Part shown: positions 9,583 to 28,423 of the stretch, one piece after another
Numbering within the stretch: the stretch's first letter is position 1
Layout: each line of letters starts with the position of its first letter
NCBI RefSeq assembly: GCF_000178995.1
Contig: NZ_ADVZ01000005.1
Location: forward strand, 186,001 to 250,000
Source: Afipia sp. 1NLS2
GTDB lineage: Bacteria > Pseudomonadota > Alphaproteobacteria > Rhizobiales > Xanthobacteraceae
Length of the DNA stretch: 64,000 bases
Direction: 5' to 3'
Notes under the pieces: model-generated
Database searches by the model: none
The model's input: only the letters and a program-made list of their open reading frames with translations
What the model was told of the DNA's origin: nothing
Translations under genes and position numbers: made by a program

Positions 9583-10264
9583 ATCCAAATCAGGCTCGAG
9601 GCCCAAAGCGGCCTCGGGCCCCTCTTCTTCCGAGACATCCCACCCCGACCGCGACTGTCCCCTCTGCCTTCGTCTGGCGTCCTTCCGCGAGGACAACCGC
9701 GCTGCGCACCCCGACTGGTTCAACGCGCCCGTGCCGCAGTTCGGCGGGGTCGATGCGGCGCTGCTAATCGTCGGCCTTGCGCCCGGTTTGCAGGGCGCCA
9801 ACCGCACCGGGCGGCCCTTCACCGGCGACTATGCCGGCGATCTCCTGTACCAGACCCTGCTCGATTACGGCTTCGCCTCCGGGCATTACGAGGCACGCCC
9901 GAATGACGGCCTGAAACTGGTGAACTGCCGGATCGGCAACGCGGTGCATTGCGTGCCACCGCAGAACAAGCCGACGCCCGCCGAGATCAACACCTGCCGC
10001 CAATTTCTTGTTGGCACGATTGCCGAGATGCCGCGCCTGCGCGCCATCGTCTCGCTCGGGCGCATCTCGCACGATTCGACATTAAAGGCGCTGGGCCTGC
10101 CCTTGCGCGCCGCGCCTTTCAAGCACGGCGGCGAATTCCAGCACGACAGGATTCGCATCTTCAGCAGCTATCACTGCTCGCGCTACAACACCAACACCGG
10201 CGTGCTGACGCCGAAGATGTTTCACGCGGTGTTCGCTAGCGTGCGGGATTATCTGAAAGATTAG
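9560..10264 (+). CDS. Family 5 uracil-DNA glycosylase (UdgB-like)
   Basis: This base-excision repair enzyme removes uracil, and often other deaminated bases, from DNA. The 234-residue protein has N-terminal cysteines (DCPLCLRL) and a GLAPGLQGANRTGRPFTGD active-site motif, with CVPPQNKPTPAE further on; these are consistent with an iron-sulfur-cluster UDG of family 5. The C-terminal catalytic loop reads YHCSRYNTNTG, where the family usually has HPS, so Pro-Ser is changed to Cys-Ser. The start ATG 9560 lies inside the NYN gene. It ends convergently, overlapping the peroxiredoxin gene by 4 bp. Confidence 0.9.
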   Translation: MKKSTTTKSKSGSRPKAASGPSSSETSHPDRDCPLCLRLASFREDNRAAHPDWFNAPVPQFGGVDAALLIVGLAPGLQGANRTGRPFTGDYAGDLLYQTLLDYGFASGHYEARPNDGLKLVNCRIGNAVHCVPPQNKPTPAEINTCRQFLVGTIAEMPRLRAIVSLGRISHDSTLKALGLPLRAAPFKHGGEFQHDRIRIFSSYHCSRYNTNTGVLTPKMFHAVFASVRDYLKD

Positions 10265-10836
10265 ACCGGGTTGGCCTTCAGCCACGCCAAGACATCGGCG
10301 GCGCTACGGTCCGGAGGAAACACTGGATAGAAAACGTGGGTGATGACACCCGCATCCGCGACCAGCGCGAGGCGCTTCAACAGCGTCTGCCCCGCGACCT
10401 CCATCGTCGGCAGCTTCAAAGCCTTGGTCAGTTCGAGTTTGGCATCCGACAGTACCGGAAACGGAATGTGCAGCCGCGTCACCATTTCGCGCTGATAATC
10501 CGTGCTCTGGGTGGACAGGCCGAACACACGGGCGGCACCGGCGGCTTTCAGCTCGCCGGCGAGATCGCGGAATGAACAGGTCTGTGGCGTGCAGCCGCGC
10601 GCCCCGGGGATCATGTCCCAATCCTCGGTCAGGCCGATCTTGCCGGGCTCACCGGTGCGCGGATAGGCAAAGACGACGATCCGGCCGGGCTCTCGTGACA
10701 GTACAACGCTCTCGTCGTTCGTATCCGTCAGCGCCACATCGGGAAAACGCTGGCCGGTGAGGTGCGCTGCCGCGCCGTCATCCTCGGGGGCTGGAATCTT
10801 CGACCAATCGGGAGCTTCCAAACTCGGCTGATTCAT
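10261..10836 (-). CDS. Peroxiredoxin (AhpC/TSA, BCP-like)
   Basis: This thiol peroxidase reduces peroxides. The 191-residue protein has the thioredoxin-like fold and the active-site segment GARGCTPQTCSFRD, with a peroxidatic Cys and a second Cys four residues on, as in bacterioferritin comigratory proteins. The insertion between YPRTGEPG and the active site is longer than in E. coli BCP. It lies 5 bp downstream of smpB on the same strand. Confidence 0.88.
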   Translation of the reverse strand: MNQPSLEAPDWSKIPAPEDDGAAAHLTGQRFPDVALTDTNDESVVLSREPGRIVVFAYPRTGEPGKIGLTEDWDMIPGARGCTPQTCSFRDLAGELKAAGAARVFGLSTQSTDYQREMVTRLHIPFPVLSDAKLELTKALKLPTMEVAGQTLLKRLALVADAGVITHVFYPVFPPDRSAADVLAWLKANPV

Positions 10837-10841
10837 TTTGA

Positions 10842-11315
10842 CTATCCTCTCGCCCGCAGCAACCGGCTCTTTTCGCGTGACCAGTCCCGCTTCTTTTCCG
10901 TTTCACGCTTGTCGTGCAACTTCTTGCCCTTGGCGAGCGCCAGCTCGAGCTTCAGCCTGCCCTGCTCGTTGAAGTACATCTTCAGCGGAATGAGCGTCAT
11001 CCCCTCGCGCTCGATCGCGCCGATCAGTTTGTTGATCTGGCGCTTGTGCAGCAATAATTTGCGCGGCCGGCGCGGCTCGTGATTGAAGCGGTTGGCCTGC
11101 AAATATTCGGGGATGTTGGCGTTGACGAGCCAAATCTCGCCGCCCTTCGAGTCAGCATAGGACTCCGCGATGGTGCTCTTGCCGTTGCGCGCGGACTTCA
11201 CCTCGGTGCCGGTGAGCATCACACCGGCCTCGATAGTGTCCTCGATGGAATAGTTGAATCGCGCCTTGCGGTTTTCCGCAACGACCTTGATCGGGCGCTC
11301 CTTTTTCTCAGCCAT
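10842..11315 (-). CDS. smpB: SsrA-binding protein SmpB
   Basis: SmpB brings tmRNA to stalled ribosomes for trans-translation. The 157-residue protein shows [30 protein letters not shown] and the C-terminal basic tail [19 protein letters not shown]. The tail sits in the vacant mRNA channel. The length is normal. The ssrA RNA itself is not visible near it. Confidence 0.97.
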
Positions 11316-11339
11316 CGCAGCGATTTCTGGTCACAGGCG

Positions 11340-11753
11340 TCACTTCGCCTTCAAGAGGTCGCGGATTTCGGTGAGCAGTTCCTGATCCTTGGTCGGCGCC
11401 GGCGGCTCCGCAGGCTTCGCCTCCTCGCGCTTGAACTTGTTGATGAAGCGAATCACCACGAACAGCACGAAAGCGACGATCAAGAAGTTCAGCGTCACGG
11501 TCAGGAAGCTGCCCCAGGCCAGCACCGCGCCCTGCTTCTTGGCGTCCACCAGATTGGTCGCGGTCACGGCTTTCGACATGCCGGTGAAGTAGTTCGAGAA
11601 GTCGAGGCCGCCCGTGATCGCACCGATCACCGGCATGATGATATCGCCGACCAGAGAGGAGACGATAGCGCCAAACGCAGCACCGATGATGACGCCGACC
11701 GCCAGGTCGACGACATTGCCCTTCATGGCGAAGTCGCGGAATTCCTTGAGCAT
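11340..11753 (-). CDS. mscL: Large-conductance mechanosensitive channel MscL
   Basis: MscL forms a pressure-relief pore in the inner membrane. The 137-residue protein has the signature [31 protein letters not shown], given here in parts (start [15 protein letters not shown]1 [13 protein letters not shown]), a second membrane helix [13 protein letters not shown], and a C-terminal amphipathic helix EIRDLLKAK. The start at 11753 has an AGGAGAGG site 8 bp upstream; a start at 11774 would lack one. Confidence 0.96.
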
Positions 11754-11793
11754 CGAAAACCTCTCCTTATCCAAACAAGGTGGCCAACATTGC

Positions 11794-12687
11794 TTAATTC
11801 AGCACCCCGGCGTGAACCATCGCATCGCGAATGGCTCTGCCAACGAGTGGCGTCACCGGCATCAGCGGCGGACGAACCTCCTCCTCCAGCCGGCCCAGCA
11901 GCTTGAGGCCGTGCTTCGCTCCGGCAACGCCCGGCTCCTTGAAGATGGCATCGTGCAACGGCACCAGCCTGTCCTGAATTTTCAGGGCACCCGCGTAGTC
12001 CCCCTTGAAAACGGCCGCCATGAGATCGGCGCACGGCTTCGGCGCGATGTTGGCGGTGACCGAAATGCAACCATGCCCGCCCGCCGCCATGTAAGCGAGT
12101 GCGGTCATGTCCTCGCCCGACATCTGGATAAAGTCTGGCCCCATGGCGTGCCGCTGCTGCGAGACGCGCGCGAGATTGGCGGTGGCATCCTTCACGCCCG
12201 CGATGTTCTTCAACTCGAACAGCCGCGTCATCGTCTCGACCGACATATCCACGACCGAGCGCGGCGGGATATTGTAGATGATGATCGGAATCCCGACCGC
12301 ATCGTTCACCGCCTTGAAGTGGTGATACATCCCATCCTGCGTGGGCTTGTTGTAATACGGCGTCACTACCAGCACGGCGTCGGCGCCGGCCTTCTCGGCG
12401 TGCTTTGCGAGAGCGACCGCTTCCGTGGTCGAGTTCGAGCCCGCACCGGCGATCACCGGCACGCGGCCGCTCGCCTCCTTCACGCACCATTCGACGACCT
12501 TGTTGTGTTCGTCATGCGTAAGGGTCGGGCTTTCGCCCGTGGTACCGACGGGAACCATACCGTTCGAGCCTTCGGCGATCTGCCAGCTCACGAGGTTGCG
12601 AAATGCGCCCTCGTCCAGGCTGCCGTTTTTGAAAGGGGTGACCAAGGCTGTAAAGGAACCCCGAAACTTGCCATTGGCCGCCATCAT
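11794..12687 (-). CDS. dapA: 4-hydroxy-tetrahydrodipicolinate synthase
   Basis: DapA condenses pyruvate and aspartate semialdehyde in lysine and diaminopimelate synthesis. The 297-residue TIM-barrel protein has [10 protein letters not shown], the Tyr in YNIPPRS, and the Schiff-base Lys in IAGVKDAT. Two ATGs stand in tandem (12687 and 12684) behind a GGAGAAAG site; either could be used. It is transcribed away from the lytic transglycosylase gene. Confidence 0.95.
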
Positions 12688-18444: not shown

Positions 18445-20643
18445 GTGCCGCGTCCCGATCTCAATGACATTTTCAACCGCGCTCTGTTGGCCCACCGTGC
18501 CGGTCAACTCGATATCGCCGCCTCGCTTTACCGCGAAGTTCTCACGCACGATAAAAAACAGTTCGCACCTCAGCATCTGCTCGGCGTGATCGAAGGCCAG
18601 CGTGGGAATCTCGCGGAAGGCATTCGCCAGATCACCAAGGCTCTCCGGCTCGATCCAAAATCACCGGAAGCTTATCTCAATCTGGGACGGATGCAGGGAG
18701 AGGCTGGCGATCTCAGCAATGCGGAAAAGAGCCTTCGCAAATCCATCTCATTGAATCCGAGCAATGCGCTCGCCTATGGTAATCTGGCCGCCGTTTACCG
18801 ACGCATGAAGCGTTACGAGGAAGCCAAAACCGCAGCCGACCAAGCCCTCCGGATCGATCCGAACGAATGGATGGCCCTTATCAATCGCGGCAATGCGCTT
18901 CTCGCCCTTAATCTGCTTGACGACGCCAAAGCAGACTATGAGCGCGCCGCCACTTTGCACCCTTCGGCACCGGAAGCCTGGATCGGCCTTGGCGACATCG
19001 CCTGCAAAAATCGCGACATCAAAGCCGCTCTTGCGCACACCCAAAAGGCCCTGACGCTGGCACCAAAATCCGCAGAAGCCTGCCTTCTGCAAGCCCGCCT
19101 TCTTGAAATGCGATTCCTCCACGAGGAAGCACTAATCGCAATCAAGCAAGCGTTAGCTGCCGCGCCCGACCTCGTTGAGGCCGACATCCTGCGCAGCAGA
19201 ATTCTATTCACGGCCAAACGATACTCGGAGACCATTCCAATCCTGGAAAGAATTATCCGGTCAAATCCCGAGACAGTCGGCATCAAAGGGCAGCTTTTCG
19301 TCTCCAAGATGATGACCTGCAACTGGGATCGCTATGAAAAGGACCGGCTCGCATGTGTGCGCGCGATCGAAGAGAATCCGGCCCACATCACGCCCTATGA
19401 TTCCGTGATCGTCACACAGGCCCCTGCTCAACATTTGGCTTGCGCTGTCGCACACACAAAAAGGGGCTTTCCGAAGATCGAGACTGTTTGGCGGGGTCCT
19501 CTCTACGCGCATGAGAAAATCCGCATCGGCTACGTGTCTCCCGATTTCAGGGAACATGCGGTCGGCCACGTCATTGCCGACCTGTTCGGGCACCACGACA
19601 AGAGACACTTCGAACTTTATGGATTTTCCACCGCCGCTGATGAATCAGCGCTACGCGCCCGGATCAAATCCACCTTCCATCATTTCATCGACATCGGCTC
19701 GATGACCCATGAACAGGCTGCGCAATGCATCCGCGACCACGAAATCGACATCCTGATTGATCTGGCAGGACACACGGTCCACACGGGCTTGGACGCCATG
19801 GCGTTCAAACCCTCCCCTATTCAGGTCACATGGCTCGGTTTTCCCGGCACCACCGGCGCGCCGTTCATGGATTACATCCTTGCTGATCCGACAGTCATTC
19901 CGGCGGAACACGCACCCTTCTATTCGGAGAAGATCGTTCGGCTTCCCGACACTTATCAACCCAACGACGGCGCGCTGAAAGTTGCCGACAGCCCATCACG
20001 CGAGGATGTCGGCCTGCCCGCGAGCGGCCTTGTGTTCTGCTGCTTCAACAACACCTTCAAGATCACGCCCGAAGTGTTCGACATCTGGATGCGCTTGCTC
20101 GGCCAGGTCGAGGGTAGCGTCCTTTGGCTGTTCGAAGGCAACGCCACCGCAAAGGCAAACCTCATCAAGGAAGCTGTCGCGCGCGGAATTTCCCCCGAGC
20201 GTCTCGTTTTCGCTCCGCTTGCAGATTATGCGACCTATCTCGCGCGCACGCAGCTCGCCGACCTGTTCCTCGACAACAACTATTGGAACGGTCATTCCAC
20301 CGCGAGCGATGCATTACGCTGCGGTGTGCCGGTCATCACCTGCCAGGGCACCAGCTTCGCCAGCCGCGTGGCCTCCTCCCTGCTCCGCGCCATCGAGATG
20401 CCGGAGCTCATCACCACATCGCTGGAAGATTACGAGGCGCTGGCGCTCAAGCTGGCGTGCGACCCCGCTTTGCTCGCCGCCACCAAGGACAAGCTCGCGA
20501 GGAACCGCCTCACGGCGCCACTGTTCGACACCGCACGCTTCACCCGGCATCTGGAAGCCGCCTATGTGACCATGTACGAACGCGCGCAGCGGGGCGAGCC
20601 GCCCGCCTCCTTCGCAGTCGAGGCTCTGCCGTCCAAGATTTGA
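18445..20643 (+). CDS. TPR-repeat protein with GT41 (O-GlcNAc transferase-like) domain
   Basis: The 732-residue protein, from GTG 18445, has about eight tetratricopeptide repeats (residues about 1-300), followed by a C-terminal GT41 glycosyltransferase domain with RIGYVSPDFREHAVGH, DLAGHT, QVTWLGFPGTTG, CCFNNTFKITPEVFDIW and NYWNGHSTASDALRCGVPVI. Bacterial relatives glycosylate Ser/Thr of proteins such as flagellins or have unknown targets. The last 38 codons have a diverged duplicate at 28028-28144 on the far side of the formate dehydrogenase block. Confidence 0.92.
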   Translation: MPRPDLNDIFNRALLAHRAGQLDIAASLYREVLTHDKKQFAPQHLLGVIEGQRGNLAEGIRQITKALRLDPKSPEAYLNLGRMQGEAGDLSNAEKSLRKSISLNPSNALAYGNLAAVYRRMKRYEEAKTAADQALRIDPNEWMALINRGNALLALNLLDDAKADYERAATLHPSAPEAWIGLGDIACKNRDIKAALAHTQKALTLAPKSAEACLLQARLLEMRFLHEEALIAIKQALAAAPDLVEADILRSRILFTAKRYSETIPILERIIRSNPETVGIKGQLFVSKMMTCNWDRYEKDRLACVRAIEENPAHITPYDSVIVTQAPAQHLACAVAHTKRGFPKIETVWRGPLYAHEKIRIGYVSPDFREHAVGHVIADLFGHHDKRHFELYGFSTAADESALRARIKSTFHHFIDIGSMTHEQAAQCIRDHEIDILIDLAGHTVHTGLDAMAFKPSPIQVTWLGFPGTTGAPFMDYILADPTVIPAEHAPFYSEKIVRLPDTYQPNDGALKVADSPSREDVGLPASGLVFCCFNNTFKITPEVFDIWMRLLGQVEGSVLWLFEGNATAKANLIKEAVARGISPERLVFAPLADYATYLARTQLADLFLDNNYWNGHSTASDALRCGVPVITCQGTSFASRVASSLLRAIEMPELITTSLEDYEALALKLACDPALLAATKDKLARNRLTAPLFDTARFTRHLEAAYVTMYERAQRGEPPASFAVEALPSKI
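20527..20643 (+). repeat. Left copy of the duplicated GT41 3' end
   Basis: This 117-bp segment, from the DTARFTRHL codons to the stop, aligns without gaps to 28028-28144. The encoded 38 residues agree at 31 positions. Weaker similarity continues past the stop into about 20644-20700, where the minus strand resembles the end of the Sel1-like gene at 28157. Confidence 0.85.
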
Positions 20644-20908
20644 TCGAGGAAAGCCTTTACGCGCCGATCCTCGAGGCGTGGGGCTTTACCCTGGGAGCAT
20701 TACGCGCAGTAATTTGAAATGACTATCAATTCAATTTGAAAAAACTATTGTTCCTGCCTTAGCCGCCTTATGAAGCGCACTTCCGAACCATGAACCGTGA
20801 TTTATGATCGGATAAGCAAATTAAAACGGCTCATGTGAAGACACCTTCATATCCCATAATCCATGGTCGGTGGTATATTAGAAGAAATCCAATACTCTGG
20901 AGGCCATT

Positions 20909-22891
20909 ATGGGCAGACAAGGCAAGCAGAACTACACGCGACTGACCGAGCCGCTTGTCCGCGAAAACGGTGTGCTGCGGCCCGCCTCCTGGGATGAGGC
21001 GCTCGATCGCGCCGCCGAAGGCTTCCGCCGGAACCGCGAGCTCCATGGTGACGACTCGTTCGGCATGTTCGCCTGCTCCCGCTCGACCAACGAGCTGAAC
21101 TTCATCGCGCAGAAGTTCGCCCGGGCGGTGATGGGCACCAACAACATCGACTCCTGTAACAGAACTTGACACGCTCCTAGCGTCGCCGGTCTGGTGACGG
21201 TATTCGGAGCTGGCGGTGGTACCTCGTCCTATCGTGAGATCGAGGACGCGGACTTGATTATCTTCTGGGGCTCCAATGCCCGAGAAGCACACCCGATTTT
21301 CTTCCATCACGCCCTGAAGGCGATCCACAAGGGCGCCAAGGTCTATTCGGTCGATCCGCGCCGGTGCAAGACAGCCGAGTGGGCCGACAATTGGCTTGGG
21401 CTGGATGTCGGCACCGACGTGGCGTTGGCCTATGGTATCGGCCGCGAGATCATCCACGCCGGATTGACCAACGAGGCCTTCATCGCGAACGCCACCCTTG
21501 GGTTCGAAGATTACATCGCCGCGTGCGAGCCGTGGACACTGGAAGTCACGTCCCGTGAGACGGGAGTGCCCGCGGATCTGATCCGTGAGCTCGCGCACGA
21601 CTATGCCAAGGCGGAACGCGCACAACTGTGCTGGACGCTCGGCATTACGGAACATCACAACGGCACCGACAATGTGCGGGCCCTGTGCAACCTCGCGCTG
21701 CTCACCGGCCAGGTCGGCCGCTGGGGCGCGGGCCTGGTTCCGGTGCGCGGTCAGAACAACGTCCAGGGCGGCGGCGACATGGGGGCGATCCCCAGGAACC
21801 TGCCCGGCTTCCAGGATGTCGGGAATCCCGAGCATCGGGCGAAGTTCGAACGCCTTTGGGGCGTCACGATGCCTCCGAAGTACGGCTTGACGCTCTCGGA
21901 GATGATGGAGGCGATGGACGAGGGACACCTAACCAGCGTCTACATCGTGGGCGAGAACCCGGTGCAGTCCGACGCCGACACCACGGCGGTGGCCAGGCGG
22001 TTACAGAACCTGGACCATCTGGTCGTGCAGGATATCTTCCTCACCAAGACCGCCACGTTCGCCGACGTGGTGCTCCCCTGCGCTGCGGCATGGTGCGAAA
22101 GCGATGGCACCTTCACCAGCAGCGAACGGCGGGTGCAACTCGTGCGCAAGGCACTGGAACCACCAGGAAGCGCGAAGGACGACATCGAGATCATCCGTCT
22201 GGTCGCAAAGCGTCTGGGGCACGATTGGCCGATCCAGACCGCGGAAGAGATTTGGGATGAACTGCGCGCGGTGTCGCCGGCGCACCATGGAATGTCCTAC
22301 CGGGTGCTTGCAGAACGGGGTGGCGTCCAGTGGCCCTTCCCTGACGAGAATGGACCGGAGTCGCCGTTCCTGCACGGCCGGCTCTGGGAAAAGGATCCCG
22401 CGAAGCGCGGACGCTTGGCGCCATTCGGCATCCTTGAGCACAAGCTGCCGGTGGATAAGCTCAACGACGAGTTCCCGCTGCGCCTGACGACCGGCCGGCG
22501 ACTGACCGACTACAACACCGGCGTGCAATCCGGTGGCTTCAACTCACCGATCCGCGTCGGCGGCTGCGTCGACATCTCTCCGGAGGATATGGTTCGGCTC
22601 GGTATCAACGAGGGCGAAGTGGTCCGCGTGACTTCCCGTCGCGGATCGGTGCTGGCGCCTGCCCGTATCGATCCGGGACTGCGCCCCGGCCTGCTCTTCA
22701 TGGCCTGCAACTTCCCCGACGACGTGGACACCAACTCGCTCACCATCGAAGCGAACGACCCGATCTCGAAAACCGCCGAGTTCAAGGCAACAGCGGTCAA
22801 AGTAGAGAAGACCAACGAGCCTCTCCCCGAAGAGAGCGCCGACACCGCTGATCACGAGCCCCAGGATAACGAGCTCGCGACCGCGAACTAG
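20909..22891 (+). CDS. fdhF: Selenocysteine-containing formate dehydrogenase catalytic subunit (UGA readthrough)
   Basis: The gene must be read through TGA 21167-21169, giving 660 residues with selenocysteine at position 87. The surrounding residues NNIDSCNRT-Sec-HAPSVAGL match the active site of FdhF/FdnG-type enzymes, where Sec binds Mo or W and the next His aids proton transfer. The same frame continues with bis-MGD-binding segments (IIFWGSNAREAHP, TLGITEHHNGTDN, GQNNVQGGGDMGA) and the conserved Arg in TTGRRLTDYNTG. A SECIS hairpin lies just after TGA. The ribosome site TGGAGG precedes ATG 20909. The usual N-terminal Fe4S4 domain is absent and appears on the third gene. An automatic annotation would split this into two false genes. 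Confidence 0.93.
21167..21199 (+). promoter_or_regulatory. Selenocysteine UGA codon and SECIS hairpin
   Basis: TGA at 21167-21169 is followed by stem CGTCGCC (21181-21187), loop GGTCT (21188-21192) and stem GGTGACG (21193-21199), seven pairs including one G-U. Counting T of TGA as 1, the loop GGU occupies 22-24, the same spacing as the fdhF SECIS of E. coli, and a T occupies position 17. This element should recruit SelB with Sec-tRNA. Confidence 0.88.
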
Positions 22892-22907
22892 GTAGGAAGG
22901 ATAAGTT

Positions 22908-24758
22908 GTGGACCTGAAGTTCTCCAACGCCGAACCGTTCGCTGATGAACGGGACGCGGTTGATCGGCTGCTTGGAACCAGTGAAAGTGGTTGGCACGGT
23001 GGCGAGCGCGACGAGAAAGACCACCGGCGCGCGCACAGTGGCCGCTCGCAGAGTCGACGGCACCTCGTCATGGAGGCGCTGCACGCTGTGAATGACCGCG
23101 TCGGTTGGATCAGTCCCGGCGCGCTGAACTACATCGGAAAACGGCTCGGCATAGCCGCAGCCGACGTCTACAGCGTCGCGACGTTCTATGCGATGTTCTC
23201 CACCAACATGCGGCCGAAACGCATCGTGCACGTCTGCACCGATATCGCCTGCATGGCGCGCGGATCCAAGGAGGTCTGTGCCGACCTCGAGAAGCGGCTG
23301 GGTCCGGCCGGCGCCATGAGCGGCTGGAAGCACAGTCCCTGCCTCGGCGTGTGCGAACGCGCACCTGCCGCGCTGGCGGTAGAAGCCGGTGACCCGCCCC
23401 ATGAGCACCTGATCGGGCCTGCCACTGCCGATGAAGTTGTCCTTGCGCTGAATAACGGTCCCGTGGCCCTCGCAGCCGAGGCGCCGCCCGGCATGGCCGT
23501 GCCGCAAGCCGGCCAAGAAGGCCTGATGCTGCTCAAGCGCGTCGGCAAGGTCGACCCGGAAAGCATCGACGACTACCTCGCGACCGGCGGCTATGCCGGA
23601 TTGCGGCGGGCGTTCGAGATGGGACCCGGCAAGGTCATCAGCGAGGTCAAAGACTCCCGGCTGATGGGCCGCGGCGGGGCGGCGTTTCCCGCCGGCATCA
23701 AGTGGGAGAGCACCGCCAAACAGCCTGCCACGCCCCGCTACCTTGTCTGCAACGCCGACGAAAGCGAGCCCGGTACGTTCAAGGATCGCGCCATCCTCGA
23801 GGGCGACCCGTTCGCATTGATCGAGTCGATGACCATCGCCGGTTACGCCATCAGCGCTGAGCGGGGCTACATCTACCTGCGCGGCGAGTACCCTCGCGCC
23901 TACCGGATGTTGAGCAACGCCATCGCAAGGGCCCGCGGACGCGGATTCCTGGGCGACAACGTCATGGGTACCGGGTGGAGCTTCGAGCTGGAGATCCGGC
24001 GCGGTGCCGGCGCCTACATCTGCGGCGAAGAAACCGCGATCTTCAATTCGATCGAGGGCTATCGTGGTGAACCGCGCTCCAAGCCGCCCTTCCCGTTCGA
24101 AGCCGGACTCTTCAACAAGCCGACGGTGGTCAACAACGTCGAGACCCTGTGCAACGTCCCGCTGATCATGCAGATGGGCGGCGCAGAGTACGCCAAGATC
24201 GGAACCGAGGGCTCCACCGGACCCAAGCTGTTCTGTGTTTCGGGCAACCTCGTGCGCCCCGGCGTCTACGAAGTGCCGTTCGGCGCGACTCTGGGCGATG
24301 TTATCAAGTTGGCCGGCGGAGTACCGCAGGGCCGAAAGCTGCAGGCGGTGCTGCTCGGCGGCGCGGCCGGTGTGTTTGTGCGCGCTGATGAGCTTCATAT
24401 CCCGCTTACCTTCGAGGGTGCTCGCGCCAACAACGCCACCCTGGGCTCGGGCGTGGTGCTGGCCTTCGACGATACCGTCGATCTGCCCGCCATTCTGCTG
24501 CGCATCGCGAGCTTCTTCCGCGACGAATCCTGCGGCCAGTGCGTCCCTTGCCGGGTGGGCACGGTACGTCAGGAGGAAGCGCTGCTGCGCATCATGCGCA
24601 ATGGCCGCGATACCGCGGCCAAGGAACGCAACGTCGGCCTGCTGCGCGACGTCGGCCTGGTTATGAAGGATTCCTCGATCTGCGGTCTTGGTCAGGCTGC
24701 CTGGAATGCCGTCGAGTCGGCTATCGACCGCCTCGGCGTACTGGAGAAAAGCCGATGA
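22908..24758 (+). CDS. Formate dehydrogenase diaphorase subunit (NuoE-NuoF fusion)
   Basis: The 616-residue protein combines a thioredoxin-like [2Fe-2S] domain (Cys in VCTDIACMARGS and SPCLGVC) with a NuoF-like domain: GRGGAAFPAGIKW and NADESEPGTFKDR (FMN/NADH binding), then CGQCVPCRVGT plus a later Cys in SSICGLG for a [4Fe-4S] cluster. It should pass electrons from formate to NAD. GTG 22908 is the start, with GGAAGG 7 bp upstream and 16 bp after the catalytic gene. It overlaps the next gene by 4 bp. Confidence 0.92.
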   Translation: MDLKFSNAEPFADERDAVDRLLGTSESGWHGGERDEKDHRRAHSGRSQSRRHLVMEALHAVNDRVGWISPGALNYIGKRLGIAAADVYSVATFYAMFSTNMRPKRIVHVCTDIACMARGSKEVCADLEKRLGPAGAMSGWKHSPCLGVCERAPAALAVEAGDPPHEHLIGPATADEVVLALNNGPVALAAEAPPGMAVPQAGQEGLMLLKRVGKVDPESIDDYLATGGYAGLRRAFEMGPGKVISEVKDSRLMGRGGAAFPAGIKWESTAKQPATPRYLVCNADESEPGTFKDRAILEGDPFALIESMTIAGYAISAERGYIYLRGEYPRAYRMLSNAIARARGRGFLGDNVMGTGWSFELEIRRGAGAYICGEETAIFNSIEGYRGEPRSKPPFPFEAGLFNKPTVVNNVETLCNVPLIMQMGGAEYAKIGTEGSTGPKLFCVSGNLVRPGVYEVPFGATLGDVIKLAGGVPQGRKLQAVLLGGAAGVFVRADELHIPLTFEGARANNATLGSGVVLAFDDTVDLPAILLRIASFFRDESCGQCVPCRVGTVRQEEALLRIMRNGRDTAAKERNVGLLRDVGLVMKDSSICGLGQAAWNAVESAIDRLGVLEKSR

Positions 24759-25681
24759 ACGCGCCCGTCCAGCAGATTACGATCTCCATCGACGGCAAGG
24801 AGGTCAGCGTCCCTGAGGGGAGCACCATCCTGACCGCGTGTAACGCTGCGGGCAAGGACACGCCGACGCTCTGCTACGGCGACACCCTCACGCCCAAGAA
24901 CGCCTGCCGCGTTTGCATGGTCGAGCTCAAGGGCTCGCGCGTCCTCGTGCCCTCCTGCTCTCGCAAGGTTCAGCCCGGCATGGAGGTCTTTACCGACACC
25001 GACCGGGTGCGGCACAGCCGCCGCCTCGTACTGGAGTTGCTCGATTCCTCGGTCGACCTGTCCACGACGCCGAAGATTCCCGAGTGGAAGGAACGCTACA
25101 GCGTCGACTCCGGTCGTTATGGTCCGAAAGCTGGTCCGAGCCTCCGCCGTGATGTTCATGAGCCGGGCGAGCACCACACCGGAAACGGCAGCGTCGCGGC
25201 CTCGATGGCCCAGCCAGACAAGATCGACAACGATCTCTATGTGCGCGAGTATGACAAGTGCATCCTCTGCTACAAGTGCGTGGATGCCTGCGGGACCCAG
25301 TGGCAGAACAGCTTCGCGATCCAGATCGCGGGGCGCGGATTCGATTCCCAGATTTCCACGGAGTTCGCGGTCGAACTGCCGGAGTCCGCGTGCGTCTTCT
25401 GCGGCAACTGCGTGGAGGTGTGTCCGACGGGAGCGCTATCGTTCAAGTCCGAGTACGATATGAGAGCCGCAGGCACTTGGGACGAAGCGCAGCAGACCAC
25501 GACCACCACGATCTGCACCTACTGCGGCGTCGGCTGTAACGTCGAGCTGCACGTCCAGGACAACAAGATCGTCAAGGTGACCGCGCCCCACGATCACGAA
25601 GTCAACCACGGCAATCTGTGCATCAAGGGCAGGTTTGGCTTCACGCACGTCCAGAGCCGCAAGGAAGACGGCAACGACTAG
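24755..25681 (+). CDS. Formate dehydrogenase iron-sulfur subunit carrying the displaced Fe4S4 domain
   Basis: The 308-residue protein has three parts. Residues 1-75 form a NuoG-like [2Fe-2S] ferredoxin (CYGDTLTPKNACRVCMVE). Residues about 150-225 carry two [4Fe-4S] motifs, CILCYKCVDACG and CVFCGNCVEVCP. The last 50 residues, ICTYCGVGCNVELHVQ through GNLCIKGRFG, are the CxxCxxxC...C domain that normally begins molybdopterin oxidoreductase catalytic subunits. This domain is missing from the catalytic chain, so the two polypeptides probably meet to complete it. The start overlaps the previous stop (ATGA). Confidence 0.92.
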   Translation: MNAPVQQITISIDGKEVSVPEGSTILTACNAAGKDTPTLCYGDTLTPKNACRVCMVELKGSRVLVPSCSRKVQPGMEVFTDTDRVRHSRRLVLELLDSSVDLSTTPKIPEWKERYSVDSGRYGPKAGPSLRRDVHEPGEHHTGNGSVAASMAQPDKIDNDLYVREYDKCILCYKCVDACGTQWQNSFAIQIAGRGFDSQISTEFAVELPESACVFCGNCVEVCPTGALSFKSEYDMRAAGTWDEAQQTTTTTICTYCGVGCNVELHVQDNKIVKVTAPHDHEVNHGNLCIKGRFGFTHVQSRKEDGND

Positions 25682-25767: not shown

Positions 25768-27567
25768 TCACCGCACCACTTCGCGGTGGTCTTCGTCGAT
25801 CCGGCGCGTCCAGCCACGTCCGTCCAGATACTCCAGCAGCGGGATCGCCACCCGGCGGCTGGTCCCCAGGGCCTGCCGTGCCTGACTGGTGGTGAAGGGT
25901 TGCGGCAATTGCGCCAGTGCCTGTCTCGCAAGCTCTGGCGCGGACGGCAGCAGCACTACACCTCCTGGAAAACGCAACACCCGCCGGGCGCTCTCGGCCG
26001 CGGCCAGTTCGCGGATACCAAGGCCGAGGGCGGCGAGATCGCCGGCCAACGGTGCGAGGAAGGGATTCGTAAGCAACCGCGCTTCGAGCTTCGTCACCCC
26101 GGCCTCGGCGCGGCCAAGGTCGGCGCGCACCCGCGGCAGCCGGACGCAACCTTGGTGCTGCTCGAGGCCGGCGTCCTCGACGAGTTGGTCGATGAAGCGC
26201 GCTGCGGACGGACCAAGGGCGTCGCGCACCGCTCCTTGGGAAACGCCGGGCGTAAGCTGATCCCGCTGGGAGTCATCCTCCACCAGAGCCCGCAGCCGCC
26301 CTCGCCACTCGTCATAGGTGGGAAGGTGCACCCACCAGCCACTTCGTTCGCGGATCCCGGGGGGCGGCGCTGCATCGGGACCAACCAGGCCGATCCGGTG
26401 CAGGTAGTCCACCTCCACAGCGCCCCGCTCCGCCACCTTGGCCAGCACGTCGCCTTCGGGTGGCATCGCGGAAAGCGCTACCCCGCGCCGGGCACTATCC
26501 CCACGGCGCGCGAGTTGCGGTGGATCTGGGTCCAGCACACCGACGCCGCCGAGCACGCGATGACGTGCCGGATGACGGAGCAGCAGCCGATCGCCCACGA
26601 TCAGCGGCAGCGGCCAGTCGAGAGTGATCCGGGCATGCTCGGCATTGAATCGGCGCAACTGGGCTGGCACCGTCGCCGTTCCGACATGCACGGTGAGTTG
26701 TGTGGGCACCTCATCAAGCGCGGCACCCCCGATGCGGCGCACATCGACCTCCGTGGCCATGAGCCAGGCGTCTGGCGCGATCAGTGCCTGACCACGACGA
26801 ACGTCCCCTGCGGACACGCCACGCAGGTTGACCGCGGCCCGGGTCATGGGACGAAGAGCGTCGGCAGGAGCGTCCCGCGATTCCAGGGCGCGGACGACGA
26901 CCTCGCGCGGCTCCTGACCATCGCCGGCCACCACGAGCCGATCACCCTTGGTCAGCGTGCCAGCGACGAGGGTACCGGTCGCCACCGTGCCCGCCCCCGA
27001 AACGCTGAACGAGCGATCGATCCACAGCCGGAGGCGGCCGCTCGCGTCAGGCGCAGGCGCTTTGGCCAGCACGTCATCGAGGGCTTGCCTGAAGTGGTCT
27101 AATCCAGTGCCCTGCACGGCCGATACGGCGACCGCCGGTGCGCCGCGCAGACCTGTGTGTGCGAGTTCGCTGTGAGCACGCTCGATGGTCGCCGCGACGA
27201 GATCCGGCGCACGGTCGGCCTTGGTGACCACGATCAGACCGTGGCTGATGCCGAGTGCAGCGATGGCATCGCGATGATCGCTGGATTGCGCCGACCAACC
27301 CTCGTCGGCAGCCACCACGAAACACACCACCGGCACCGTCCCCAAGCCAGCAAGTGCATTGCGGATGAACCGCCCGTGGCCGGGCACGTCCACGAAGGCG
27401 ACCTCACGCCCGGAAGGCAAAGTCGTCCAGGCGAACCCGAGGTCGATGGTGAGCCCGCGCCGGCGCTCCTCCTCCCAGCGGTCCGGCTCCATCCCGGTCA
27501 GCGCGCGGACCAGAGTGCTCTTGCCGTGGTCGACATGACCGGCCGTCGCGACGACGTGCGTCGTCAT
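25768..27567 (-). CDS. selB: Selenocysteine-specific elongation factor SelB
   Basis: SelB delivers Sec-tRNA to UGA codons marked by a SECIS. The 599-residue protein has GHVDHGKST (G1), RGLTIDLGFAW (switch I), DVPGHGRFI (G3) and TKAD (G4), with the short EF-Tu-like spacing typical of SelB rather than EF-Tu, then domains II-III and winged-helix repeats at the C-terminus ending EYLDGRGWTRR. No frame damage is visible. The sequence style is more like actinobacterial than proteobacterial SelB (impression, not tested). Its ATG at 27567 overlaps the end of an 18-codon open stretch following selC. Confidence 0.93.
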   Translation of the reverse strand: MTTHVVATAGHVDHGKSTLVRALTGMEPDRWEEERRRGLTIDLGFAWTTLPSGREVAFVDVPGHGRFIRNALAGLGTVPVVCFVVAADEGWSAQSSDHRDAIAALGISHGLIVVTKADRAPDLVAATIERAHSELAHTGLRGAPAVAVSAVQGTGLDHFRQALDDVLAKAPAPDASGRLRLWIDRSFSVSGAGTVATGTLVAGTLTKGDRLVVAGDGQEPREVVVRALESRDAPADALRPMTRAAVNLRGVSAGDVRRGQALIAPDAWLMATEVDVRRIGGAALDEVPTQLTVHVGTATVPAQLRRFNAEHARITLDWPLPLIVGDRLLLRHPARHRVLGGVGVLDPDPPQLARRGDSARRGVALSAMPPEGDVLAKVAERGAVEVDYLHRIGLVGPDAAPPPGIRERSGWWVHLPTYDEWRGRLRALVEDDSQRDQLTPGVSQGAVRDALGPSAARFIDQLVEDAGLEQHQGCVRLPRVRADLGRAEAGVTKLEARLLTNPFLAPLAGDLAALGLGIRELAAAESARRVLRFPGGVVLLPSAPELARQALAQLPQPFTTSQARQALGTSRRVAIPLLEYLDGRGWTRRIDEDHREVVR

Positions 27568-27619: not shown

Positions 27620-27715
27620 TGGCGAAGGCGGACAGGAAACGAACCTGCCAGACCGAGTTACCCGGTCTCACCGATTTCGAAGACCGGGAGGACCACCGGA
27701 AACCCAAACACCTCC
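27620..27715 (-). tRNA. selC: tRNA-Sec-like gene with anticodon UCG (selC, probably defective)
   Basis: The 96-nt gene folds in the 8+5 form of tRNA-Sec: 5' GGAGGTGT, D-arm with CCGGTGG, an 8-bp variable arm AGACCGGG-TAA-CTCGGTCT, T-arm and encoded G-CCA. It lies next to selB. The anticodon loop at 27682-27676 reads CTTCGAA, so the anticodon is UCG, not the UCA needed for UGA. The acceptor has two wobble pairs and a U-C mismatch at pair 8, and the T-loop reads TTCGTTT with position 58 changed from A to T. These changes look like decay, though an unusual recoded tRNA-Sec cannot be excluded. Confidence 0.85.
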
Positions 27716-28027
27716 GAGCGCTCTCACATCGAACACTCATCTTGTCGAGCACTCTCCCTTGAAGGCCTATGCCTGACCAGTGCACGAATGCACACAAAAT
27801 GCGTTGGTATTGCGTTCTGCAATGCTTGGGAAACGCTTTGATTGTCAAGAAGAAGTTGAACCGTGCAAGATGCACGCGTTCACCGCTCGAATACGCAATT
27901 TTTTCTATCAAACAATCGAACGCGACTATCGATGGGCATATTCGAGCTGCCCAGCGATTTTTTAGCACCCATAGTGCGAGCGATGATTGTGCCGCCCGAA
28001 ATAACCGGTGCGACAGATTTCAGGATC
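27716..28027. other. AT-richer stretch at the right edge of the island
   Basis: No convincing gene is present. Several short open frames overlap one another without ribosome sites. It probably includes the promoter for selC-selB and the recombination junction with the GT41 remnant. Confidence 0.5.
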
Positions 28028-28144
28028 GATACCGCGCACTTCACCCGGCATCTGAAAGCCGCCTACGTGACCATGCACGAACGCGCGCAGCCGGGCGAGC
28101 TACCAGCCTCGTTTGCGATCGAGGCCCTGCCGTCCGGAATCTGA
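28028..28144 (+). pseudogene. 3' remnant of a GT41 (O-GlcNAc transferase-like) gene
   Basis: The 38 residues from DTAHFTRHL to LPSGI agree at 31 positions with the last 38 residues of the intact GT41 protein ending at 20643, including the stop position. The rest of the gene is absent upstream. Divergence of about 18 percent suggests a remnant of a second, paralogous copy rather than a fresh target duplication. It keeps its convergent position relative to the Sel1-like gene. Confidence 0.85.
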
Positions 28145-28156
28145 TCGGGAAAGGCT

Positions 28157-28423
28157 TTAGTGCGCCGTCATCCATGCGCGGGCTTCGCGCTGGGCCAGCG
28201 CGATGTCTTCCGCTGACATCTGTTCGGCGAGTTCGCGGCGCAACTGGATCGCATCCACCCGTCCCTTGAGTGCTGCCAGATTGAACCATTTGTGCGCGGC
28301 AATGAAATCGACGATGCCGTCACGGCCGGTCGAGAACATCAACCCGAGGTCGAACAGCACGTCGCCGTTCGCGCTTGCCTCCACCGGCGAAGCGCCGGTC
28401 TGGTCGATCACCATCTGAAACAT
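28157..28423 (-). CDS. Sel1-like repeat small protein
   Basis: The 88-residue protein has one Sel1/TPR-like helical repeat, DGIVDFIAAHKWFNLAALKGRVDA, followed by a polar helix EQMSAEDIALAQREAR. The start MFQMVIDQ at 28423 is preceded by AAGGGGGG. Similar short Sel1-type proteins are common in Bradyrhizobium relatives; no function is known. It is convergent with the GT41 remnant. Confidence 0.8.
   Translation of the reverse strand: MFQMVIDQTGASPVEASANGDVLFDLGLMFSTGRDGIVDFIAAHKWFNLAALKGRVDAIQLRRELAEQMSAEDIALAQREARAWMTAH

Follow-up and report, generated by a model that had tools for sequence, protein, structure and literature searches.

A tRNA gene of the selenocysteine type (tRNA-Sec) that adjoins a selB gene in Afipia sp. 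1NLS2 carries the anticodon UCG in place of UCA, raising the question of whether it serves an altered genetic code, still reads UGA, or is a copy in decay. The window, that is the whole stretch of 64,000 nucleotides that was analysed, corresponds to positions 186001-250000 of contig C6 in an assembly of 3.97 Mb that is 99.9% complete. Hereafter, SelB* designates the actinobacterial-type SelB encoded there, selC* the tRNA-Sec gene linked to SelB* and fdhF* the adjoining formate dehydrogenase alpha gene; G000 is the genome carrying the window, and the other G- and L-numbers are compared genomes and loci. The features discussed are the following.

20525..20666, plus strand: direct repeat, left copy, 142 nt.
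20909..22891, plus strand: fdhF*, catalytic part of formate dehydrogenase alpha, with Sec at an in-frame TGA.
21167..21169, plus strand: Sec codon TGA, in the context NRT-U-HAP.
21182..21198, plus strand: SECIS hairpin GTCGCC-GGTCT-GGTGAC (from folding and conservation).
22908..24758, plus strand: fdhB, a NuoE/NuoF-type fusion subunit.
24755..25681, plus strand: NuoG-like subunit with the Fe4S4 domain that normally begins FdhA (Fer2_4, Fer4, Molybdop_Fe4S4); the start used here is the one suggested by an ATGA overlap, as against 24539 in the list of ORFs.
25768..27567, minus strand: selB*, actinobacterial-type SelB of 599 aa, intact (TIGR00475, SelB comparisons, dN/dS).
27620..27715, minus strand: selC*, tRNA-Sec-type gene with anticodon UCG, apparently partly decayed (ARAGORN, Rfam, nine homologues compared).
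27678..27680, minus strand: anticodon UCG, read as UCA in the other eight selC* copies that keep the triplet.
28026..28167, plus strand: direct repeat, right copy, 142 nt.

ARAGORN calls a 96-nt tRNA with anticodon tcg at 27620-27715 on the minus strand and labels it Arg, and the Rfam tRNA-Sec model (RF01852) matches the same interval with 54.8 bits (E 2.5e-8), above its gathering score of 47. This score discriminates poorly: in this genome and in its relatives, tRNA-Ser(UGA) genes reach 48.3-52.8 bits with the same model. The gene is placed in the tRNA-Sec type because its position before selB* matches that of the intact selC* in G014, to which it aligns at 89.6% identity, the score by itself being insufficient. 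It resembles bacterial tRNA-Sec (RF01852) in its long variable arm, long acceptor, G73-CCA end, position beside selB and score above the gathering value, and differs in its weaker stems, in the anticodon UCG where UCA is expected, and in U58. A58 of the T-loop is a conserved, nearly invariant position. The window gene has TTCGTTT there, whereas TTCGATT is found in all four intact relatives and in 70 of 72 actinobacterial tRNA-Sec copies from the best 80 of 166 matches, the other two falling outside the search pattern. The anticodon loop is CTTCGAA and the 3' end GCCA; according to the available text of PMC5330540, G73 is held essential for tRNA-Sec. A sequence-only reading had described a tRNA-Sec-like gene by selB with anticodon UCG, loop CTTCGAA, T at position 58, a CCA end and 27678 as the deviating anticodon base, all of which agrees with the program calls, the alignment to the G014 copy and the sequence itself, base 27678 being unlike that of all four intact relatives. 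Its list of defects fared less evenly, as only part of the damage is specific to the window copy. Derived changes such as U58 belong to it, but the U-C apposition at acceptor pair 8, real as it is, is also present in the four intact relatives, and of the 72 tRNA-Sec genes that 74 actinobacterial loci (best 80 of 166 matches) yielded, 66 have T/C at this pair, so that this mismatch was rejected as a sign of decay and is considered ancestral. The U6-G pair likewise occurs in the intact copy of G005.

The selenoprotein gene beside selC* shows which codon has to be read. The Sec codon of fdhF* is TGA in all 12 SelB* loci, and the fdhF*-fdhB-fdhN operon stands beside selB* in every one of them. The 17 bases of the SECIS are identical in these 12 loci and in G118, and changed in G201. 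The window fdhF* has three CGA codons, each aligned with Arg in all 10 aligned relatives, as the sequence-only reading had held for CGA in this gene. Because the Sec codon is TGA and the CGA columns are Arg, the operon has no need of a tRNA-Sec with anticodon UCG. Along 20909-25681 the formate dehydrogenase alpha subunit is split, its Fe4S4 domain lying at the C-terminus of the separate downstream NuoG-like subunit, and this gene order is matched in the 12 SelB* loci as well as in G118 and G201. The loci of these last two genomes (L199 and L200) carry fdhF* with TGA and the GGTCT loop, have no SelB* match and encode only a normal SelB, which weakens the idea of a strict pairing between SelB* and the GGTCT SECIS; SelB* may thus not be strictly required for fdhF*. 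In another Sec formate dehydrogenase gene, fdoG, the SECIS loop is AGTTT in 10 of 11 loci and AGTCT in the remaining one. No fdoG was detected in G011, G136 or G014 at E up to 1e-100, G014 having a normal SelB.

The genome holds other tRNA-Sec genes. A genome scan for another selC, selA and selD, which the sequence-only reading had proposed, returned two more tRNA-Sec genes on contig C10, both with anticodon UCA (77.1 and 75.6 bits) and each adjoining its own selA, selB and selD, which brings G000 to three full-length selB genes and three tRNA-Sec-type genes. The complete normal selA-selB-selC-selD sets lie at 8803-13375 of L009 and 7864-14307 of L010; one is beside a Sec-TGA fdoG and the other has no fdhF* or fdoG match nearby. 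At 10005-10100 of L010 the normal selC is nested within a mechanical selB reading frame (9972-12206), an arrangement like that described in the available text of PMC8124441. Matching normal sets are found in G005, together with a third selA/selD pair by its SelB*.

The state of selC* was then compared across the 12 alphaproteobacterial SelB* loci. These comprise the loci L072-L076 of G098, G014, G010, G136 and G011, respectively, and L077 as the twelfth. An intact selC* with UCA is present in four of them (G005, G011, G014 and G136); in the other eight it is altered, replaced or undetected, and a normal selC exists elsewhere in every one. The G003 copy retains UCA and has a 3-nt deletion in the D-loop together with U58, whereas 3, 8 and 11 of the 27 pairs are broken in G002, G067 and G098, and 48 positions are deleted in G010. 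The remnant in G067 gives no match to the tRNA-Sec model at E up to 1e-4. In G193 (L172) a damaged selC (46.5 bits) occupies the slot; it belongs to the normal alphaproteobacterial type, with 84% identity to the genome's own normal selC and 63% to the intact selC* of G014. In G098 (L072) the selC* remnant lies between SelB* and an intact normal-type selC with UCA, the latter some 200 nt upstream of SelB*. No selC was detected before selB* in L077 with ARAGORN or at the RF01852 gathering threshold, and a normal selA-selB-selC-selD set follows further along this locus.

Normal selB and selC genes occur in 9 of the 11 SelB* genomes searched. In the other two, G011 and G136, neither a further selC nor a further full-length SelB was found, the remaining model matches over the cut-off being tRNA-Ser; both keep selC* intact and have selA and selD a few kb from it. 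G014 and G005 have an intact selC* despite the presence of a normal selC, and G005 combines normal sets with a local selA and selD. Among the eight searched genomes that have no local selA/selD, only G014 keeps selC* intact (Fisher P 0.024), an association between decay and absence of local selA/selD that is indicative only, the 11 genomes being related. The anticodon UCG is seen in one of the nine alphaproteobacterial selC* copies that keep the triplet and in none of the 72 tRNA-Sec genes that ARAGORN calls in the 74 actinobacterial loci among the best 80 of 166 matches.

Eight positions of the window copy are unlike all four intact copies, namely 27700, 27698, 27678 (anticodon), 27674, 27662, 27658, 27639 (U58) and 27625. 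The changes at 27662, 27639 and 27625 are common to the window copy and G003, those at 27674 and 27658 to the window copy and G002. G003 is the only one of 13 relatives in which the block lies in matching flanks, and since three of the window changes, U58 included, are shared with it in the same flanks, change began before the anticodon mutation. The window copy has 9-11 differences over 96 positions to the four intact copies, which differ from one another at 2-4 of 96, and pairs that include an altered selC* show 8 to 40 differences over the 48-96 sites compared. Its RF01852 score of 54.8 bits is also below those of the four intact copies linked to SelB* (70.6-74.9). Faster change than in intact homologues and an intact copy elsewhere in the genome (the two UCA genes on contig C10), both looked for as marks of a decaying duplicate, were thus found; the third such mark, loss of stem pairing, was not, as 0 of the 27 cloverleaf pairs are broken. 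In the window copy six of the pairs are G-U, where the intact copies have one to three, and the cloverleaf energy is -29.5 kcal/mol against -35.6 to -37.8. When eight random substitutions were simulated, all pairs survived in 3.3% of cases and the anticodon was struck in 23%, so that the anticodon change needs no special cause, and the intact pairing of the stems speaks mildly for a constraint that persists or was recent. Between the window copy and G003, 12 of 93 sites differ in the tRNA and 13 of 52 in the spacer beside it (binomial P 0.003). Because the tRNA diverged more slowly than the spacer, constraint would have lasted past the split between the window and G003 copies or would still act weakly.

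The elongation factor has been kept. SelB* scores 277 bits with TIGR00475 (NCBIfam selB; curated cut-off 242.25) and contains PF00009, PF25461 and PF09107, with the GTPase and the C-terminal winged helix of a SelB. A scan of the genome collection gave 166 relatives, the best 80 of which comprise 6 alphaproteobacterial and 74 actinobacterial proteins, as classed from record titles. SelB* is 81-87% identical to 11 alphaproteobacterial relatives and 47-65% to the 74 actinobacterial SelB among these best 80 of 166, while the genome's own two SelB share 37-38% identity with it over the matched part. It is present in 7 of 29 genomes of the genus and in 11 of 296 drawn from the family, those 7 included. 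In the literature searched, titles and the beginnings of abstracts contain no description of an actinobacterial-type SelB in relatives of Afipia. The alphaproteobacterial loci that retain selC* have it directly before selB*; the actinobacterial loci in which selA was mapped show the order selC, selA, selB in five of six, selC coming after selB in L147. No stops interrupt SelB* in any of 11 genes, and dN/dS ranges from 0.116 to 0.172 over the 14 pairs computed, with 0.116 for G002-G010 and 0.136 for G000-G003, pairs in which both selC* are altered. As SelB* stays intact where selC* is altered, it probably uses the resident tRNA-Sec, and from this pattern of conservation we infer that it can accept it. 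The selB* tree is poorly resolved, grouping G000 with G003 at 68% support in the DNA tree and not in the protein tree, and the shared insertion site is better evidence for the kinship of these two genomes.

The fdh-selB*-selC* block of the window is bounded by the two copies of the 142-nt direct repeat, which are 82% identical and suggest an insertion; the repeat overlaps the 3' end of a TPR/glycosyltransferase-41 gene. We propose that the block, consisting of a Sec formate dehydrogenase operon, an actinobacterial-type SelB* and its own selC*, was probably acquired by transfer. Where a normal tRNA-Sec is already present, selC* would be redundant and would tend to decay, the UCG anticodon being one of the eight changes gained by the window copy, and SelB* would most likely bring the resident tRNA-Sec with UCA to the fdhF* TGA. 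G000 has a second and a third selC, its selB* is intact, the Sec codon is TGA and decay in the relatives is graded; we further infer that the UCG tRNA is not used. With high confidence, the window gene is taken to be a decaying redundant selC whose SelB* has been kept, likely with the resident UCA tRNA-Sec, and the UCG anticodon is most likely a scar of decay and not a new genetic code. Of the three options in the sequence-only reading, decay of selC and the existence of a second selC therefore hold together, the former with eight changes absent from the four intact relatives, whereas a natural anticodon variant finds no support, as all 12 loci use TGA for Sec, CGA is Arg and UCG occurs in no other SelB*-type-linked tRNA-Sec examined (best 80 of 166 matches).

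Alternatively, selC* might be usable but for its anticodon base, and that base an error of sequencing or assembly, UCG and UCA differing by a single base. We consider it unlikely, given seven further changes unlike all four intact relatives, three of the changes being shared with G003 and two with G002. Quite improbable, too, is a UCG tRNA that still folds, accepts Sec and is taken by SelB* either to UGA, with G-U pairing at the first codon base under control of the SECIS, or, as Sec or Ser, to some CGA codons; if true, this would be a naturally occurring tRNA-Sec that has lost the match to its own codon. In the first of these forms, a G36-U1 pair would be tolerated with SelB* anchored by the SECIS. 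The unbroken stems, the divergence slower than that of the spacer and the conservation of SelB* and SECIS are in keeping with it, but wobble at the first codon position is not expected, U58 and the weakened acceptor pair are shared with G003, where the D-loop is deleted as well, and UCA copies are at hand, which makes this form very improbable. The second form, a working variant with which SelB* inserts Sec or Ser at CGA, can draw on the unbroken fold, on the natural tRNA-Sec with other anticodons, sense ones included, described in the available text of PMC5330540 and PMC7609411, on the CUA copy in L145 and on the available text of PMC3834832, which reports no evidence for contact of SelA with the anticodon, yet it is scarcely credible and a code change at CGA was rejected, since fdhF* uses TGA and has Arg at its three CGA columns in 10 aligned relatives, no codon matching UCG stands at the Sec site of fdhF* in the 12 loci, the relatives do not keep the variant, two UCA tRNA-Sec are present in the genome, and A58, part of the TTCGATT of 70 of 72 actinobacterial copies (best 80 of 166 matches), has become U.

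Decay of a redundant selC is an ordinary process in an interesting setting. A lone odd tRNA-Sec anticodon is not to be taken for a code change until the genome has been checked for further selC genes and the selenoprotein gene for its Sec codon. The relatives constitute a natural experiment in which a specialised elongation factor was kept and its own tRNA was repeatedly lost or swapped for the resident type, so that an exchange of partners between a foreign SelB and a resident tRNA-Sec becomes testable.

Known cases of multiple tRNA-Sec genes, of pseudogenes and of variant anticodons are reported in the available text of PMC5330540, PMC7609411 and PMC3834832. Alphaproteobacterial selB genes with selC remnants at their 3' end have been described, for example in Sinorhizobium meliloti and Rhizobium (PMC8124441, available text). 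As in the window, a tRNA-Sec remnant lies beside or in a kept selB of alphaproteobacteria; there it is inside the 3' end of the selB frame, whereas selC* stands before an actinobacterial-type SelB in a mobile-looking block. In deltaproteobacteria, a second SelB occurs with a selC-like tRNA-Cys (PMC7609411, available text), which is likewise a second selB adjoining a selC-like tRNA in one genome; that tRNA has the identity elements of tRNA-Cys (U73), unlike the window tRNA, which has G73 and resembles actinobacterial tRNA-Sec. In Geodermatophilaceae, tRNA-Sec with a CUA anticodon shares with the window gene a tRNA-Sec body and an anticodon other than UCA (PMC5330540, available text), but its selenoprotein codon matches the anticodon, whereas in the window the codon is TGA and UCA copies coexist. 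A Modestobacter tRNA-Sec with CUA at 7639-7730 of L145, near its SelB, scores 66.9 bits and provides, by contrast, an anticodon variant with a good score.
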